Under the pieces are notes generated by a model. It saw only the letters and a program-made list of their open reading frames with translations, was not told where the DNA came from and did no database searches. A stretch of DNA of 64,000 nucleotides, taken from positions 1 through 64,000 of the forward strand of contig CAKTCK010000007.1 in the NCBI GenBank assembly GCA_934539245.1, given 5' to 3'. The stretch's first letter is position 1; the number at the start of each line of letters is the position of its first letter. This stretch comes from an uncultured Faecalibacterium sp. Its GTDB lineage: Bacteria; Bacillota; Clostridia; Oscillospirales; Ruminococcaceae. The position numbers and the translations under genes are program-made. This document shows, piece after piece, positions 37,660 through 47,925 of the stretch.

Positions 37660-38424
37660 TTACAGCATTTTGGAAAGGAAGGCTTTCAGGCGGGGGTGCT
37701 TGGGGTTGGTGAACAGCTCCTGCGGCGGCTCGTCCTCCTGAATTTTGCCATCGTCAATGAAGATGACCCGGTTGGACACCTCGCGGGCAAAGCCCATCTC
37801 GTGGGTGACCACCAGCATGGTGATGCCGGTGTGTGCCAGCTCCTTCATCAGCTCCAGCACCTCGCCCACCATCTCGGGGTCAAGGGCGCTGGTGGGCTCG
37901 TCGAACAGGATCACGTCCGGGTCCATAGCCAGCGCGCGGGCGATGGCTATGCGCTGCTGCTGACCGCCGGACAGGCTCTTGGGATAGGCGTTGGCCTTGT
38001 CGGCCAGACCTACGCGGGCCAGCAGCTCGTCTGCGCGGGCAGAGATGGCTTCCTTGTCCTTCAGCTTCAGCAGGCTGGGTGCCAGCTCAAGGTTCTTTTT
38101 CACGGTCAGGTGGGGGAACAGGTTGAAGTGCTGGAACACCATGCCCATCTTCTGGCGCACAGCATCGATGTGAGCCTCGTCCACCTCCACCCCCTCAAAC
38201 TTGATAGAGCCGGAGGAAGGGGTCTCCAGCCGGTTCAGGCAGCGCAGAAAGGTGGACTTGCCGCAGCCGGAAGGGCCGATCAGGCAAACCACGTCGCCGC
38301 GGTAGATGTCAAGGTCGATGCCCTTCAGCACGTCCAGCGTGGGGTCGGCCTTTTTTGCGCCGCGCTTCTTTACGCCGCCGTAGGTCTTGGTCAGGCCGCG
38401 TACTTCCAAAATCTTATCGGTCAC
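37660..38424 (-). CDS. Polar amino-acid ABC transporter ATP-binding protein
   Basis: A 254-residue ATPase of the GlnQ/HisP group: Walker [32 protein letters not shown], signature [19 protein letters not shown], Walker [18 protein letters not shown]-loop [13 protein letters not shown] Lys-rich insert ([12 protein letters not shown]) lies in the early strands. The start is taken as GTG 38424, ten bases after AGGAGG; it overlaps the permease stop by 11 bases. Third gene of the importer operon (binding protein, permease, ATPase). Confidence 0.92.
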
Positions 38425-39178
38425 TTTGTGCCAGCCTCCTCTCAAACTTGCTCAGCAGCCATGTAAACAGCATAACAAGGATCAGGTAGATCAATGCAAC
38501 GCCCAGCAGGGGGAACATGGCTTCGTAGGTGCGGTTCATAATGCCCTGTGCGGCATACAGCAGCTCCTTGCCGCCGATGGTGGTGATCAGGGAGGTATCC
38601 TTGAGCAGGATGATGAACTCGTTGCCCAGTGCAGGCAGCACCGCACGGATGGCCTGCGGGATGATGATGACCACCATGGTGGTCATGTAGTTCAGGCCAA
38701 GGCTGCGCCCGGCCTCCATCTGGCCGGGGTCCACGGCCATCAGGCCGCCGCGGATGATCTCGGATACATACGCGCCGGAGTTGATGCCCAATGTCAGCGC
38801 ACCCACCATGGTAAAGTTGCGGCTGTTGGCAAAAATGACCATGCTCATGATCAGCAGCTGCACCATCATGGGCGTGCCGCGGATGATGGTGGTATACACC
38901 TGACACACCGCATTAAAAAAGCCCAGCACCGCGTTTTTGTGGCCGGGACGCTGCTGGTCGTGGGTCACACGCACCAGCGCCACCACGCTGCCCAGCACCA
39001 CGCCCAGCGCCAGCGCCAGCGCGGTGACCAGCAGGGTGGTGCCGACGCCGCTGATGTACTGCATCCAGCGGTCCTTCAGCAGAAAGGCCTGATAAAACTT
39101 GAAGAAGAAATCCTGTCCAAAGCTTAGCTTTGTGCCGCTGTTGAGCAGCTCTTTGAGCAGTTCGTATTGCGCAGCCAT
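38414..39178 (-). CDS. Polar amino-acid ABC transporter permease
   Basis: A 254-residue inner-membrane permease of the HisM/GlnP family with about five helices. The signature is [34 protein letters not shown] (EAA loop), preceded by [18 protein letters not shown], both typical. It has an N-terminal extension of about 40 residues ([32 protein letters not shown]). Separated from the binding-protein gene by a terminator-like hairpin. Confidence 0.93.
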
Positions 39179-39226
39179 TCACATCCTCACTTTCTGTTTG
39201 TCAATAAATTGTAACCACTTTTTTCT

Positions 39227-39259
39227 AAAAAAAGAGGTGCCCCGGAGCGGGGCGCCTCC
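39227..39259 (-). terminator. Intra-operon terminator between binding protein and permease genes
   Basis: On the minus strand GAGG-GCCCCG-CT-CGGGGC-CCTC followed by seven T, 30 bases after the binding-protein stop. Partial read-through would give more binding protein than permease. Confidence 0.8.
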
Positions 39260-39290
39260 TTGGGTACGGAAATGGTACAGGGCACGCAGC

Positions 39291-40121
39291 TTAGTTTGCG
39301 TTGATGTACTTGTCCACGATGGCCTGCAGGGTGCCGTCAGCCTTCAGCTCCTCCAGAGCCTTGTTGACAGCGTCCTCCAGAGCAGAGCCCTTTGCCATGC
39401 CAATGGCGTAGTCCTCCTCGGCGTAGCTGGTGTCCAGCACCTTCAGGCCGGGGTTGGCGGCAACGTACTCCGTAGCGGGAGCGTTGTCGATGACCACTGC
39501 ATCCACCTGACCGTTGTTCAGAGCCTGCACAGCGGTCAGGCCGTTGTCGTAGGCCACAACAGAGTCCTCGCCGAAGTCATCGGAGCAGTAGATGTAGCCG
39601 GTGGTGCCGCGCTGGGTACCGATCTTCTTGCCGGCCAGATCATCGGGAGAAGCAATGTCGGAATCGTTCGGCACAATGATGGACTGGATGCCGGTGGCGT
39701 AGCTGTCGGAGAAATCCATCACAGCCTTGCGCTCGTCGGTAACGGTAACGCCGGCCATCACGATGTCGGCCTTGCCCTGCTGCACGCTGAGCAGTGCGGC
39801 GTCAAAGTCCATATCATCGATCTGCAGCTCCAGACCCAACTTCTCAGCAATGGCCTTGGCGGTGTCCACATCAATGCCCTCGATCTCACCGGAGTCGGTG
39901 GTCATCTCGTACGGAGGGAAGGTGGCGTTGGTAGCCATGGTCAGCTTGCCGGCCTCCACGGTGGTCAGTTCAGCAACGGTAGAAGCAGCCTCGGAGGAAG
40001 CGGCAGAGCTTGCCACAGAGGAAGCAGCAGAGCTTGCGGAACCACCGCAGGCGGTCATAGCCAGAGCAGCAACGGAAACAGCAGCGACAGCCATGAAGCT
40101 GCGGCGAGAGATCTTTTTCAT
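39291..40121 (-). CDS. Polar amino-acid-binding lipoprotein
   Basis: A 276-residue substrate-binding protein (SBP_bac_3 family). Signal KKISRRSFMAVAAVSVAALAM with a twin-arginine-like SRRSFM, lipobox MTAC, then a Ser/Ala linker (about 22-50). The mature protein has KLTMATNATFPPYEM, EGIDVDTAKAIAEKLGLEL (family signature), MDFSDSYATGIQ, and the C-terminal KALEELKADGTLQAIVDKYI. The substrate is probably a polar amino acid; the residues do not decide which. The start is taken as ATG 40121, nine bases after GAGGAG. Confidence 0.93.
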   Translation of the reverse strand: MKKISRRSFMAVAAVSVAALAMTACGGSASSAASSVASSAASSEAASTVAELTTVEAGKLTMATNATFPPYEMTTDSGEIEGIDVDTAKAIAEKLGLELQIDDMDFDAALLSVQQGKADIVMAGVTVTDERKAVMDFSDSYATGIQSIIVPNDSDIASPDDLAGKKIGTQRGTTGYIYCSDDFGEDSVVAYDNGLTAVQALNNGQVDAVVIDNAPATEYVAANPGLKVLDTSYAEEDYAIGMAKGSALEDAVNKALEELKADGTLQAIVDKYINAN

Positions 40122-40204
40122 ATTCAAACACTCCTCAATCTATGCAATATAGTTTGCTTTGCCCCAATGGGATGCGATTCATCGCGCTTTCGGGGAACGC
40201 ACTT

Positions 40205-42483: not shown

Positions 42484-42792
42484 AATATCACAAAAATGGC
42501 TGTGAAGAGAAGAGTAGGCCTTCGCATTGATCCTTACCAGAGAGCCCGGGCGGTGGAAAAGGGCAGGAAACAGGAAGCTGAAAATGGTCTCGGAGCCGTG
42601 CGGATGAGGCGCAGGAGTGCTAAGCCCGCAACGGGATGCGCCCGTTACAGCGTCCGGCTGTAAGCAGCACACGCTGCCGCAGCATCGAGGCTGTATCCGT
42701 AAGGATGCAGTGAACCAAGGTGGTACCACGGAAGTATGTTCATGCCTCCGTCCTTGCAGAGCCTAAGGCTTGTAAGGACGGGGGCATTTTTT
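42484..42792 (+). promoter_or_regulatory. T-box riboswitch, methionine-specific, upstream of metQ
   Basis: T-box elements in order: AGTA box (about 42512), CAGAGAG (42539-42545), GGTGGAAAAGGGCAGG (42552-42567), specifier loop GAAAATGGTC with ATG (Met) at 42584-42586, the T-box sequence AAGGTGGTACCACGGAAG (antiterminator bulge TGG-N-ACC at 42721), and a terminator GCCTCCGTCCTTG.../CAAGGACGGGGGC-like with TTTTTT (42744-42792). Uncharged tRNA-Met should pair with AUG and the TGGT bulge and allow read-through into metQNI and probably metY and metA. Confidence 0.93.
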
Positions 42793-42877: not shown

Positions 42878-43792
42878 ATGATTACTCGTCGCAATTTTCT
42901 GAAAGTTACCGGTGTGGCAGCCGCAGCCGCTGCCCTGACTGCCTGCGGTGGTTCTTCTTCCACTGCTTCTTCTGCTGCTGCATCCGGCAGCGTGGCATCC
43001 TCTGCCGCAGCTAAGCTGGATAAGATCAAGGTGGCTGTGCCCAACGATACCACCAACGAAGCTCGCGCCCTGACCCTGCTGGAGAAGAACGGCTTCTTCA
43101 AGCTGAAGGCAGACGCCGGCCTGACCGCCACCAAGAACGACATTGAGGAGAATCCCCTGAACGTCACCGTGGACGAGGTGGAGGCCGCTCAGGTGCCCAA
43201 CGTCCTGCAGGACGAGGACTACGCCGTCATCAACTCGAACTACGCCATCTCTGCCGGTCTGGATCCCATGACCGATGCACTGGCCATGGAGGACGGCTCC
43301 TCTGCTTACGTCAACATTCTGGTCTGCAAGGACGGCAATCAGGAGGAGCCCAAGATCAAGGCTCTGGCCGCTGCCCTGCAGAGCCAGAAGGTGAAGGACT
43401 TCATGGACGAGACCTACAAGGGCGCCGTGGTGTCCGTTGTGGAGAACCCCACCGACGGTTATGATTCCACTGTGGACTACGATGCCCTGAACGGCCAGAC
43501 CGTCAGCTGCGCCGCTACTCCCGCTCCCCACTGCGAGGTGCTGGAGATCTGCAAGGAGATCCTTGCCGCCAAGGGCATCACGCTAGATATCCAGGAGTAC
43601 GACGACTATGTGATCCCCAACCAGATCGTCGAGGACGGCCAGGTAGACACCAACTACTTCCAGCATCAGCCGTATCTGGACAACTTCAACGCCGAAAAGG
43701 GTACCCATCTGGTATCTGTTGCCGGTATTCACGTGGAGCCCATGGGCATCTACGGCGGCAAGCAGGACAGTCTGGCACCCATCGAGGGATAA
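42878..43792 (+). CDS. metQ: Methionine-binding lipoprotein MetQ, circularly permuted
   Basis: A 304-residue lipoprotein of the NlpA/MetQ family that should feed methionine to MetNI. The signal has a twin-arginine-like TRRNFLK and the lipobox LTAC (Cys23), then a Ser/Ala linker to about 47. The lobes come in reversed order. Residues 48-190 (KVAVPNDTTNEARALTLLEKNG, NSNYAISAGL, YVNILVC, YKGAVV) match the part that normally ends MetQ. Residues about 205-304 (PHCEVLEICKEILAAKGI, YDDYVIPNQIVEDG, NYFQHQPYLD, VEPMGIYGGKQDSLAPIEG) match the part that normally begins it. The frame is continuous and promoter, T-box and metNI follow normal order, so the gene seems functional. GAGAGGG lies before ATG. 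Confidence 0.9.
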   Translation: MITRRNFLKVTGVAAAAAALTACGGSSSTASSAAASGSVASSAAAKLDKIKVAVPNDTTNEARALTLLEKNGFFKLKADAGLTATKNDIEENPLNVTVDEVEAAQVPNVLQDEDYAVINSNYAISAGLDPMTDALAMEDGSSAYVNILVCKDGNQEEPKIKALAAALQSQKVKDFMDETYKGAVVSVVENPTDGYDSTVDYDALNGQTVSCAATPAPHCEVLEICKEILAAKGITLDIQEYDDYVIPNQIVEDGQVDTNYFQHQPYLDNFNAEKGTHLVSVAGIHVEPMGIYGGKQDSLAPIEG

Positions 43793-43819: not shown

Positions 43820-44833
43820 GTGATCGAACTCAAGTACCTTTCCAAGACCTTCCAGATGAAGGATGGCGCGGTGAAAGCGCTGCAGAACATCAACCTCACC
43901 ATTCCCGATGGCTCCATCTATGGCATCATCGGTATGTCCGGTGCGGGCAAATCCACGCTGGTGCGCTGCATCAACCTGTTGGAGCGCCCCACCGGCGGCA
44001 GTGTGGTGATCGACGGCGTGGCTATGGAGACCTTGTCTCCCGCCTCGCTGCGCAAGCGCCGCCGGGAGATCACCATGATCTTCCAGCAGTTCAACCTGCT
44101 TATGCAGCGCACCTGCCTGAAGAACGTCTGCTTCCCCATGGAACTGGCAGGCGTAAAGAAGGCCGAGGCGGAAAAGCGTGCCATGGAGCTGCTGGAGATG
44201 GTGGGTCTGCCGGATAAGGCCAACGCCTACCCGGCACAGCTGTCCGGCGGTCAGAAGCAGCGCATCGCCATTGCCCGCGCACTGGCCACCAACCCCAAGG
44301 TGCTGCTGTGCGATGAGGCCACCAGTGCGCTGGACCCCAACACAACCCACTCCATCCTGACCCTCATCAAGGATATCAACCGCAAGCTGGGCATCACTGT
44401 GGTGGTCATTACCCACCAGATGAGCGTGGTAGAGGAAATCTGCGACAGCGTGGCCATTCTGGACGGCGGTGTGGTCGTGGAACAGGGCTCGGTACAGGAA
44501 ATTTTTGCAAACCCCAAAACGGCGGCTGCCAAGCGTCTAGTGGCTCCCAACGGCGGCAGCGCAGCGCGGGATCTTTCCTGCTTTGCGCCGGATGACCATG
44601 TGGTGCGCGTTACCTTCAACGGTTCCTCCACCGCAAAGCCGCTGGTGGCAAGCCTTGCCGCCGAAAAAGGCATTCTGGTGTCGGTGCTCAGCGCCGATAC
44701 CCGCGATCTGAGCGGTCAGTGCTACGGCTCCATGCTGCTCAAGCTGCCCGCAGAGCTTGCAGTTGCACAGCAGGCAGTGGAATATATGCGCAGCCAGTCC
44801 GGCGTAACGGTAGAGGAGGTGACCGGTATATGA
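43820..44833 (+). CDS. metN: Methionine ABC transporter ATP-binding protein
   Basis: A 337-residue ATPase. The nucleotide-binding domain (1-240) has Walker A GMSGAGKSTLVRCIN, MIFQQFNLLMQRTCLKNV, signature [19 protein letters not shown], Walker B VLLCDEATSALDP, H-loop ITHQMSV. The C-terminal NIL domain (about 260-335, DHVVRVTFNGSSTAKPLVASLAAEKGILVSVL) is the regulatory methionine-sensing module of MetN, allowing transinhibition. It starts at GTG with AAAGGAG upstream, 27 bases after metQ, and overlaps metI. Confidence 0.96.
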   Translation: MIELKYLSKTFQMKDGAVKALQNINLTIPDGSIYGIIGMSGAGKSTLVRCINLLERPTGGSVVIDGVAMETLSPASLRKRRREITMIFQQFNLLMQRTCLKNVCFPMELAGVKKAEAEKRAMELLEMVGLPDKANAYPAQLSGGQKQRIAIARALATNPKVLLCDEATSALDPNTTHSILTLIKDINRKLGITVVVITHQMSVVEEICDSVAILDGGVVVEQGSVQEIFANPKTAAAKRLVAPNGGSAARDLSCFAPDDHVVRVTFNGSSTAKPLVASLAAEKGILVSVLSADTRDLSGQCYGSMLLKLPAELAVAQQAVEYMRSQSGVTVEEVTGI

Positions 44834-45486
44834 ATATCGCAGCTTACGGCTTTGCCATCTGGGAGACCTTTTATGTAACGGTGCTCTCCACCGCCTTTGC
44901 GCTGGTGCTGGGTCTGCCGCTGGGCGTGCTGCTGGTAGCCGGTGACAAGGACGGCATTCTGCCCCTGCCCGGCTGGCTGATGCACCTGATCAATATCGTC
45001 ATCAACATCCTGCGCAGCGTGCCCTTCCTGATTTTGATGATCTGCGTGTTCCCGCTTACCCGCGCCATCGTGGGCACTACGGTGGGCACCAAGGCTACCA
45101 TCGTTCCGCTGGTGGTCGCCGCCTTCCCCTTTGTGGCACGTTTGGTGGAGACCAGTCTGCGGGAGCTGGACGAGGGCGTGGTGGAAGCGGCCCAGAGCAT
45201 GGGTGCTACTCCATTCCAGATTATCACCAAGGTCATGATCCCGGAGTGCCTGCCCGGCCTGATCTCCAGCATGACCACCGCACTGACCACCATTCTGGGC
45301 TATTCTGCCATGTCCGGCGTCATCGGCGGCGGCGGTCTGGGCAAGATCGCCCTTTCCTACGGCTATTACCGCTACCAGACTAACATCATGATCGTCTGCG
45401 TGGTGCTGCTGGTGCTGATGGTGCAGGCGTTCCAGTCTGTGGGTACCCTGTGGGCCACCAAGAGCGATAAGCGCCTGCGGAAATAA
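44830..45486 (+). CDS. metI: Methionine ABC transporter permease
   Basis: A 218-residue inner-membrane permease with five helices. MetI features: ETFYVTVLSTAFALVLGLPLGVLL near the N terminus, NILRSVPFLILMICVFPLTRAIVGT, the EAA loop VVEAAQSMGATPFQIITKVMIPECLPGL, and the C-terminal YGYYRYQTNIMIVCVVLLVLMVQAFQSVGT. Its ATG overlaps the metN stop (ATGA). Confidence 0.96.
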   Translation: MNIAAYGFAIWETFYVTVLSTAFALVLGLPLGVLLVAGDKDGILPLPGWLMHLINIVINILRSVPFLILMICVFPLTRAIVGTTVGTKATIVPLVVAAFPFVARLVETSLRELDEGVVEAAQSMGATPFQIITKVMIPECLPGLISSMTTALTTILGYSAMSGVIGGGGLGKIALSYGYYRYQTNIMIVCVVLLVLMVQAFQSVGTLWATKSDKRLRK

Positions 45487-45578: not shown

Positions 45579-46853
45579 ATGAATCGTGATACCATCTGTG
45601 TGCAGGGCGGCTACACCCCCGGCAACGGCGAACCCCGTCAGATCCCCATCATCCAGTCCACCACCTTCAAGTACGCCACCAGCGAGGACATGGGAAAGCT
45701 GTTCGATCTGGAGGCAGACGGCTATTTCTATTCCCGCCTGCAGAACCCCACCTGCGACATGGTAGCCAAAAAGATCTGTGAGCTGGAGGGCGGTACTGCC
45801 GCTATGCTTACCTCCAGCGGACAGGCTGCAAACTTCTTTGCCCTGTTCAATATCTGTGAGGTAGGGGACCACATCGTGGCCTCCAGCACCATCTACGGCG
45901 GCACCTTCAACCTCATCTCGGTCACCATGGCAAAGATGGGCATCACCGCCACCTTCGTAGACCCCCTGTGCACCGAGGAGGAGCTGAACGCCGCCTTCCA
46001 GCCCAACACCAAGGTGGTGTTCGGTGAGACCATCGCAAACCCCGCCCTGACCGTGCTGGACATTGAAAAGTTCGCCAAGGCCGCCCACGCCCACGGTGTA
46101 CCGCTGATGGTGGATAACACCTTCCCCACGCCGGTCAACTGCCGCCCCTTTGAGTGGGGCGCGGACATCGTGACCCACTCCACCACCAAGTATATGGATG
46201 GCCATGGCGCAGTGCTGGGCGGTGCCATCGTGGACGGCGGTAAGTTCGACTGGATGTCCCACGCCGAGAAGTTCCCGGGTCTGTGCACCCCGGACGACAG
46301 CTACCACGGCATCACCTATGCCGAGCGCTTCGGCAAAGAGGGAGCTTTCATCACTAAGGCCACTGCGCAGCTCATGCGGGACTTCGGCTCCATGCAGTCC
46401 CCCATGAATGCCTATATGCTGAACCTTGGTCTGGAAAGCCTGCACGTTCGGATGCAGCGCCACTGCGCCAACGGCATGGCAGTGGCACAGTTCTTGGAAA
46501 ACCACCCCAAGGTGGCTTATGTGAACTACTGCGAGCTGGAAAGCAGTCCCTACCACGCACTGGCACAGAAGTACCTGCCAAACGGCAGCTGCGGCGTGGT
46601 GAGCTTTGGTCTGGCCGGCGGACGTCAGGCTGCCAGCACCTTTATGAAGGAGCTGAAGCTTGCCGCCATCGAGACCCATGTGGCAGATGCCCGCACCTGC
46701 TGCCTGAATCCCGCTTCCAGCACCCACCGTCAGATGAACGACGAGCAGCTGGCTGCCGCCGGTGTGCCCGCCGAGCTGGTGCGTATGAGCTGCGGTCTGG
46801 AATCCGCCGAGGATCTCATCGCCGATATCGCACAGGCGTTGGATAAGGTATGA
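45579..46853 (+). CDS. metY: O-acetylhomoserine sulfhydrylase
   Basis: A 424-residue PLP enzyme of the Cys/Met metabolism family, sulfhydrylating O-acetylhomoserine to homocysteine. The PLP lysine is K204 in HSTTKYMDGHG; YFYSRLQNPT binds the phosphate of the partner subunit; TSSGQAANF and VDNTFPTP are usual for the MetY branch. It belongs with MetA, predicted to make O-acetylhomoserine. Methionine gamma-lyase activity is the main alternative. AAAGGAG lies ten bases before ATG. Confidence 0.9.
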   Translation: MNRDTICVQGGYTPGNGEPRQIPIIQSTTFKYATSEDMGKLFDLEADGYFYSRLQNPTCDMVAKKICELEGGTAAMLTSSGQAANFFALFNICEVGDHIVASSTIYGGTFNLISVTMAKMGITATFVDPLCTEEELNAAFQPNTKVVFGETIANPALTVLDIEKFAKAAHAHGVPLMVDNTFPTPVNCRPFEWGADIVTHSTTKYMDGHGAVLGGAIVDGGKFDWMSHAEKFPGLCTPDDSYHGITYAERFGKEGAFITKATAQLMRDFGSMQSPMNAYMLNLGLESLHVRMQRHCANGMAVAQFLENHPKVAYVNYCELESSPYHALAQKYLPNGSCGVVSFGLAGGRQAASTFMKELKLAAIETHVADARTCCLNPASSTHRQMNDEQLAAAGVPAELVRMSCGLESAEDLIADIAQALDKV

Positions 46854-46989: not shown

Positions 46990-47925
46990 ATGCCGCTGAT
47001 CATCCCCAAGACCTTACCCGCCTTTGACGCCCTGTATGAAGAAAACGTCTTTGTCATGCACCGGGAGCGGGCGCTGGCGCAGCATATCCGCCCGCTGGAA
47101 ATTCTGATCCTGAACCTGATGCCCACTAAGATCGCCACCGAGACCCAGATTGCCCGGCTGCTGGCAAACACTCCGCTGCAGGTGCACATGACCCTGCTGC
47201 AAACAGCCAGCCACTCTGCTACCCATGTGTCGGCTGCACACCTTGAGGCTTTTTACAAGACCTTTGACGAGGTGAAGAACAACCGCTACGACGGCATGAT
47301 CATCACCGGTGCGCCGGTGGAGACCATGGATTTTGAGCAGGTGGACTATTGGAACGAGCTGTGCGAGATCATGGACTTCAGCGAAACGAACGTCTACTCC
47401 ACCCTCCATGTCTGCTGGGGCGCACAGGCCGGGTTGTACTACCACTACGGCGTGCGCAAGCAGCTGCTGCCGGAAAAGATGTTCGGCGTGTTCGAGCACC
47501 GGGTCATCCGTCCGGCAAACCCGCTGGTGCGCGGCTTTGATGAGGTGTTCTATGCCCCCCACAGCCGCCACACCGGCATCTGCCGGGAAGATGTGGATAA
47601 CTGCGCCGCCTTGCGCATTCTGGCCGAGAGCGATGTCGCCGGGCCCTTCCTCATGAGCACCGAGAACGGGCGGCAGATCTTTGTCACTGGTCACCCGGAG
47701 TATGATAAGTACACGCTGGATGCCGAGTATAAGCGGGACGTAGCCAAGGGTCTGCCCATCCATGTGCCCGCCAACTACTACCCGGACGACGACCCCGCAA
47801 AGCCGCCGCTGTTCCGCTGGCGTGCCCACGCCCACCTGCTGTATGAAAACTGGTTGAACTACTACGTCTACCAGAACACTCCCTACGATCTGGGAGATAT
47901 CCAGCGAGTAAAACACGAGAAGTAA
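46990..47925 (+). CDS. metA: Homoserine O-acetyltransferase, MetA type
   Basis: A 311-residue enzyme that activates homoserine for methionine synthesis. Catalytic residues match the standard numbering: Cys142 in HVCWGAQAG, His235 and Glu237 in GHPEYD. Position 111, which decides the acyl donor, is Glu (GAPVET) rather than the Gly of succinyl-transferring MetA, predicting acetyl-CoA as donor, consistent with the neighbouring MetY. AAAGGAG lies about ten bases before ATG. Last gene of the methionine block, followed by a strong terminator. Confidence 0.96.

Follow-up and report, generated by a model that had tools for sequence, protein, structure and literature searches.

The window MetQ is a circularly permuted MetQ/NlpA lipoprotein

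The metQ gene on the stretch of DNA analyzed here (64,000 nucleotides, referred to as the window) raises the question of whether a binding protein of the MetQ/NlpA family can carry its two halves in inverted order, and, if so, whether the arrangement is functional, how widespread it is, and how often it arose. In ordinary MetQ proteins, the first half (segment A) precedes the second half (segment B), whereas the halves are swapped in the window protein, for which the following features were assigned:

42878..43792, + strand: metQ, circularly permuted (B-A) MetQ/NlpA lipoprotein of 304 aa, open reading frame intact (Pfam, PDB, order, and rotation data)
42878..42946, + strand: Tat-type signal peptide (TRRNFLK) up to the lipobox cysteine, residue 23 (Pfam TAT_signal)
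43019..43447, + strand: segment B, residues 48-190, second half of canonical MetQ, with R63, N121, and N146 of the presumed methionine site
43436..43492, + strand: new linker, about residues 187-205, between the former C and N termini (alignments, rotation scan)
43490..43789, + strand: segment A, residues 205-304, first half of canonical MetQ, with Y244, F261, H263, and Y266 of the presumed site

The Pfam profile PF03180 matched the window MetQ with 248.9 bits (gathering score 27) in two stretches, the best of which aligned residues 49-186 of the protein to positions 97-234 of the 236 profile positions. The window MetQ does not follow the collinear A-B order of this profile; since A follows B, the protein was filed as a variant and not as a regular family member. 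A phmmer comparison with the PDB chain 4ib2_A likewise gave an inverted alignment (query 205-302 to chain 9-106, and query 51-185 to chain 111-249), and two-stretch alignments were obtained for all 22 PDB matches listed. In a rotation scan against seven canonical MetQs from related genomes, the global alignment scores amounted to 144-296 for the unrotated protein and to 505-686 for its best rotation, with near-best rotation starts anywhere in residues 186-209, and shuffled controls (100 shuffles per protein) reached at most 30. Based on the Pfam and PDB comparisons and the shuffle-controlled rotation scan, the order of the halves is inverted far beyond chance, and the window metQ represents a real circular permutation of MetQ/NlpA.

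The initial annotation had assigned residues 48-190 to the second half and residues 205-304 to the first half of MetQ, which agrees with the Pfam and 4ib2_A alignments, and the motifs it quoted were found at their places within an intact reading frame. It had also proposed a real permutation, in accordance with the rotation-aware alignment, the structure prediction, and the related genomes, and a new linker between the old termini at about residues 186-206, which the rotation scan and the alignments place at about 187-205 (PTDGYDSTVDYDALNGQT). The C-terminal end of the window MetQ corresponds to the point where canonical segment A continues into segment B, a site reading about YxGKxxSLxxLxDGAxIAVPND in canonical proteins. 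No collinear alignment was obtained, and no assembly rearrangement within the gene appeared among the 23 Faecalibacterium loci returned. The initial annotation had further suggested that the permutation may change the docking to MetNI or the affinity for methionine.

For the permuted MetQ, an AlphaFold model with a pLDDT of 93.3 and a pTM of 0.86 was obtained. A sequential structural aligner paired mainly residues 2-146 of this model with solved MetQ structures, namely with their second half, as expected from the permutation. Scores for the NCBIfam models PRK11063 (162.4, cut-off 374) and TIGR00363 (158.3, cut-off 228.85) were below the cut-offs; because the canonical paralogue L131 likewise remained under the NCBIfam MetQ cut-offs, the low scores may stem from divergence as well as from rotation. 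The Pfam TAT_signal match covered residues 1-20 (28.4 bits), the lipobox cysteine was read from the sequence as residue 23, and TatC was present in all five Faecalibacterium genomes searched.

Genetic environment of the permuted metQ gene

The permuted gene is followed by genes for methionine import and synthesis, the gene order being T-box-like leader, metQ, metN, metI, O-acetylhomoserine sulfhydrylase, and metA:

42493..42758, + strand: T-box-like leader, 5' of metQ (Rfam RF00230, 81.5 bits, E 3.4e-18, gathering score 93)
43820..44833, + strand: metN, ATPase with NIL domain (Pfam ABC_tran and NIL; TIGR02314 MetN as best NCBIfam match)
44830..45486, + strand: metI, permease (PRK10782 MetI as best NCBIfam match)
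45579..46853, + strand: O-acetylhomoserine sulfhydrylase, methionine synthesis (TIGR01326, 548.3 bits, above the cut-off of 495.1)
46990..47925, + strand: metA, homoserine O-acetyltransferase (NF047918, 486.6 bits, above the cut-off of 460.5)

The leader aligned over the full RF00230 model (positions 1-219) at a score below the gathering threshold and was absent from the results of an Rfam search with default settings. The T-box is nonetheless probably real, and its specifier would be that for Met (GAA-A-AUG). Among 17 other permuted loci, a T-box was found in one (L036, 91.6 bits, gathering score 93). The best NCBIfam matches of metN and metI remained below (372.8 bits, cut-off 499.7) and slightly below (206.4 bits, cut-off 212) their cut-offs, respectively; the metI start was set to the ATG overlapping the metN stop. 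Furthermore, open reading frames for an amino-acid-type ABC transporter cluster, comprising an ATPase, a permease, and a lipobox binding protein, were noticed on the minus strand of the window (37660-40127).

Conservation and presumed methionine-site residues

The B-A order was found in 24 out of 34 related loci of named genomes, namely in 23 loci of Faecalibacterium and one of Enteroscipio rubneri (Actinomycetota, Coriobacteriia), the remaining ten loci, among them a Gemmiger, being A-B. All 23 Faecalibacterium loci returned thus feature the permuted order, which is kept beside metNI, and the carriers include isolate genomes, two of which are given as complete chromosomes in their record titles (strains I4-1-79 and I4-3-84; L003 and L019). 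For five pairs within Faecalibacterium, dN/dS values of 0.05, 0.06, 0.13, 0.19, and 0.20 were determined, and the permuted metQ is under purifying selection. In the protein database, four clusters of 304-309 aa (P0015, P0064, P0076, and P0078) comprised between 1200 and 3305 member sequences each, most other clusters listed having one member.

The same database also contains 29 MetQ-like proteins of 377-450 aa with the segment orders ABA, BAB, or BBA, 25 of which are one-member clusters:

P0002, P0003, P0005-P0014, P0016-P0022, P0024, P0027-P0029, P0055, P0249, P0283, P0319, P0324, P0357: ABA, BAB, or BBA MetQ-like proteins

These sequences apparently represent chimeras in which permuted and canonical genes were joined during assembly, and their existence would lend some credit to the explanation that the window gene is itself decaying or results from faulty assembly or annotation. 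Given the occurrence of the B-A order in isolate genomes and in every Faecalibacterium locus returned, the size of the four large clusters, and the low dN/dS values, this explanation can practically be dismissed.

Seven residues of the window MetQ (R63, N121, N146, Y244, F261, H263, and Y266) represent invariant columns in 65 permuted rows, selected from 80 distinct permuted rows by omitting near-copies. Mapped by motif and spacing, they are equivalent to the methionine-site residues R156, N213, N238, Y81, F98, H100, and Y103 of Neisseria meningitidis MetQ (PMC6739813). In each of 28 permuted genomes of an order-level sample, one metQ match was obtained at E ≤ 1e-40 among the best seven candidates per genome, and further metQ matches in ten permuted genomes of a family-level sample were weak and covered the N-terminal query region only. 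The window MetQ is thus predicted, with a high degree of confidence, to be a functional lipoprotein that binds methionine for the MetNI importer encoded next to it, despite its circularly permuted chain.

Distribution of permuted MetQ

To evaluate the prevalence of the permuted form, overlapping genome samples were searched for collinear matches, followed by a check of the A/B order. Permuted metQ genes were detected in 10 out of 148 genomes of the source's family, 28 out of 345 of its order (in addition to the divergent paralogue G467), 18 out of 391 of its class, 3 out of 398 of its phylum, and 7 out of 197 of the class of Enteroscipio (Coriobacteriia), canonical copies being mostly unlisted in the class, phylum, and Coriobacteriia searches because of the strict thresholds applied there. 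In total, 128 open reading frames (loci L001-L125 and the window) were classified, 90 of them being B-A, 38 A-B, and none of mixed order. Permuted MetQ is therefore widespread in the source's class and in Coriobacteriia and is not a quirk of one genome; the permutation defines a large clade including all Faecalibacterium loci sampled.

Three linker types were distinguished among the permuted MetQs. CP1, with a linker reading about VENPTDGYDxxVDYxALxGxT, is found in Faecalibacterium and many genomes of the same class, CP2 features a linker reading about VMPMGAQELxIPEIAEPV, and CP3 is the linker type of Coriobacteriia. In CP1, metQ is located upstream of metN (metQ-metN-metI), whereas in CP2 and CP3 it is located downstream (metN-metI-metQ), as far as metN and metI were found; the neighbour search at L086 and L106 yielded neither of the two genes, and at L043, L118, and L119 the open frame used for metQ is too long and runs into the metI match.

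Origins of the permuted chain order

A first tree was calculated from 105 out of 118 distinct rows, omitting near-copies and including one very long row (L034). A second, 67-row set, with the halves brought to one order, was picked to keep the run time short and to cover the surroundings of CP2; it retained 28 out of 80 permuted rows, omitted 8 out of 38 canonical rows (L034, L064, L046, L033, L094, L031, and both of L114), and was supplemented with nine canonical proteins. In the 67-row tree, CP1, CP2, and CP3 each formed a clade (support values of 100/99, 100/99, and 99/85, respectively), and CP2 grouped with canonical Ruthenibacterium-like MetQ (100/98). Three order changes were counted, with a bootstrap 5-95% range of 3-3, and a single change occurred in none of the 200 bootstrap trees. 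Separate trees for the A and B halves also required three order changes each; CP2 and its canonical relatives formed a clade in the B-half tree (100/99), but not in the A-half tree. Deep forks were often weak, and the positions of CP1 and CP3 differed between the 105-row and 67-row trees.

Changes of chain order were also detected in a paralogue lineage. G467 is a divergent B-A paralogue located in a metN-metI-metQ cluster with an M20 peptidase gene behind it, and the search for its family yielded six orthologues in three chain orders, namely A-B-tail (canonical; G1493 and G1436), B-tail-A (G467 and G1441), and tail-A-B (G462 and G1662), in which the cut lies at another, second site:

L127:1512-2435 (+), L130, L131:1096-2031 (+), L132, L133 (-), L162: paralogue loci, metN-metI-metQ-M20 peptidase clusters

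G467 and G1493 belong to one genus and differ in order; their identity amounts to 85% both in segment A and in the B core and to 58% in the tail. The G467 linker is the canonical C-terminal tail continuing into segment A. In a tree of MetI and M20 peptidase, G467 grouped with G1493, and G1441 with G462 and G1662 (100/100), which requires at least three order changes and fits either ancestral order. The chain order thus changes repeatedly in the MetQ family. All six paralogues carry T at the position of N121, and two out of six carry F at the position of Y266, suggesting that the ligand of the paralogue may differ from methionine.

One explanation for these data is that permuted MetQ arose only once and was spread by inheritance and transfer, adjacent canonical forms representing reversals or tree errors. 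The cut is located at a nearly identical place in CP1, CP2, and CP3, and a single permuted clade was not rejected (p 0.313) by an AU test on 101 rows with one close canonical CP2 relative, for which L034, L064, and one copy each of L113 and L114 had been removed from the first-tree rows. With the 67-row set, which yields the stronger rejection, a single clade (p 0.021), CP1+CP2 (p 0.025), and CP2+CP3 (p 0.010) were rejected, and CP1+CP3 (p 0.179) was not; rejection of one MetQ origin hence depends on the sampling. The three dissimilar linkers, the grouping of CP2 with canonical proteins in the full and B-half trees, the different positions of metQ relative to metN and metI, and the at least three order changes among the six paralogues render a single origin unlikely. 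Since the three clades have different linkers and are set apart by normal MetQs, at least two origins of permuted MetQ are likely, and three are plausible. Somewhat more tentatively, we favor the assumption that MetQ/NlpA is a permutation hot spot, in which the first connection would have been cut up to three times in MetQs and again in the paralogue, together with a second, more C-terminal-ward cut, and in which selection would move the entry of the anchor, not binding.

Possible route of the permutation

The permutation probably proceeded by tandem duplication or fusion of metQ and subsequent loss of the outer halves. The cut lies where the two lobes that grip the ligand are connected, the old ends are bridged by a linker of about 19 residues, and the export and lipid-anchor signal now stands ahead of segment B. 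The cradle formed by the two lobes would be retained along with the methionine contacts; the leading strand of the chain and the attachment site of the lipid tether are altered, and one covalent link between the lobes is cut. The B-A form presumably became established in the common ancestor of a large clade within the source's class, and comparable permutations would have occurred separately at least one further time among MetQs and several times in the metQ paralogue.

Two canonical Gemmiger-type loci, L029 and L049, indicate a possible source of CP1. Ahead of segment A, they encode a spacer reading GDGFDxxxDYAALAGTT, close to the CP1 linker (PTDGYDSTVDYDALNGQT), no other canonical locus was found to have metN behind metQ in the same orientation, which is the CP1 arrangement, and their MetN identities to the window (69% and 70%) are the highest among the canonical loci. 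L029 also contributes the canonical A half nearest to CP1, the nearest B half being that of other loci (L027, L093, and others). The spacer, the metN order, the MetN identity, and the A half together fit a C terminus that was fused to the spacer of a second gene copy. In the 67-row tree, L029 and L049 were not placed as a supported sister of CP1, and they may also have been re-permuted back to A-B. Furthermore, tandem canonical metQ-metQ pairs directly follow metN-metI at L113 and L114, so a substrate for the duplication route exists, although the pairs do not by themselves demonstrate the event. A duplicated intermediate was looked for in genomes and not found, ABA and BAB forms being present in the protein database only.

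The different nearest rows for the A half (L029, Gemmiger) and the B half (L027, L093, and others) could also mean that the window gene is a fusion of halves from two different metQ genes, with no rotation of a single one. The nearest B-half row carries little weight, since no canonical row is close to the CP1 B half (distances of at least 1.08), and both half-trees recover CP1 as a clade (96/99 and 100/98). The paralogue pair G467 and G1493, in turn, matches in both halves. Considering that duplication and trimming also join near-identical copies, so that both explanations shade together, a two-gene fusion appears very unlikely, and rotation by duplication and trimming is preferred here.

Comparison with known systems

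Natural circular permutations are usually recognized between distant proteins whose traces have already faded. In the present case, the permuted protein is a core component of a nutrient importer in one of the major genera of the human gut, and close orthologues in three orders are available from a related lineage, so that the permutation route, its neutrality, and the effects of anchor and hinge on ABC delivery become directly testable. The few database names shown for MetQs make no mention of chain order; because names are silent and profile searches accept either order, similar changes may be overlooked in other families. In the open PMC literature, neither titles nor abstract starts of the matches listed report a permuted MetQ (subscription papers and preprints being outside this scope), and the terms 'circularly permuted' and 'MetQ' occurred together only in a review on imaging reporters among the matches listed. 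Permuted MetQ is accordingly described here as a new variant of the known MetQ/NlpA family.

With canonical MetQ/NlpA proteins (PF03180; 4ib2, 1xs5, E. coli 4yah, and N. meningitidis 6dzx), the permuted MetQ shares the family, the lipobox, both halves, the presumed methionine-contact residues, and the MetNI neighbours; it differs in the swapped halves, the tether ahead of segment B, the new linker, and a mostly shorter spacer between the cysteine and the fold. The 'domain dislocation' in periplasmic binding proteins (Fukami-Kobayashi, 1999) is said to be an ancient core-topology change; it also alters the chain order, but reportedly between classes and not between halves of close orthologues. 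A further counterpart is TpMglB-2 (Tp0684), described in PMC4990184 as a circularly permuted glucose-binding lipoprotein of 'Type Ic/Cluster Bc'. Like permuted MetQ, it is a natural permuted lipoprotein of an ABC importer, and it retains glucose binding; unlike MetQ, it belongs to the type I structural class and serves sugars, and its moved part shares only 13% identity with the canonical counterpart (PMC4990184), whereas both halves of permuted MetQ feature strong identity to canonical MetQ.

Position of the membrane anchor

The authors of the TpMglB-2 study suggest membrane anchoring as a possible driver of permutation (PMC4990184), and in N. meningitidis MetQ fully stimulates MetNI only when it carries its lipid (PMC8416018). 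In the case of permuted MetQ, the shift of the anchor relative to the lobes is probably the trait most likely to matter; neutral drift of the chain order is also possible. Median spacers between the lipobox cysteine and the fold were 11 residues for CP1 (66 rows), 11 for CP2 (7 rows), 10 for CP3 (7 rows), and 25 for canonical proteins (33 out of 38 rows, five being not measurable), with overlapping ranges (8-36 in permuted vs. 10-53 in canonical proteins) and rows that are not independent. The F. prausnitzii group including the window MetQ has spacers of 30-36 residues, unlike most permuted rows. The signal of the canonical protein L030 ends with NAFAD and has no recognizable lipobox, so this MetQ is possibly non-lipidated.
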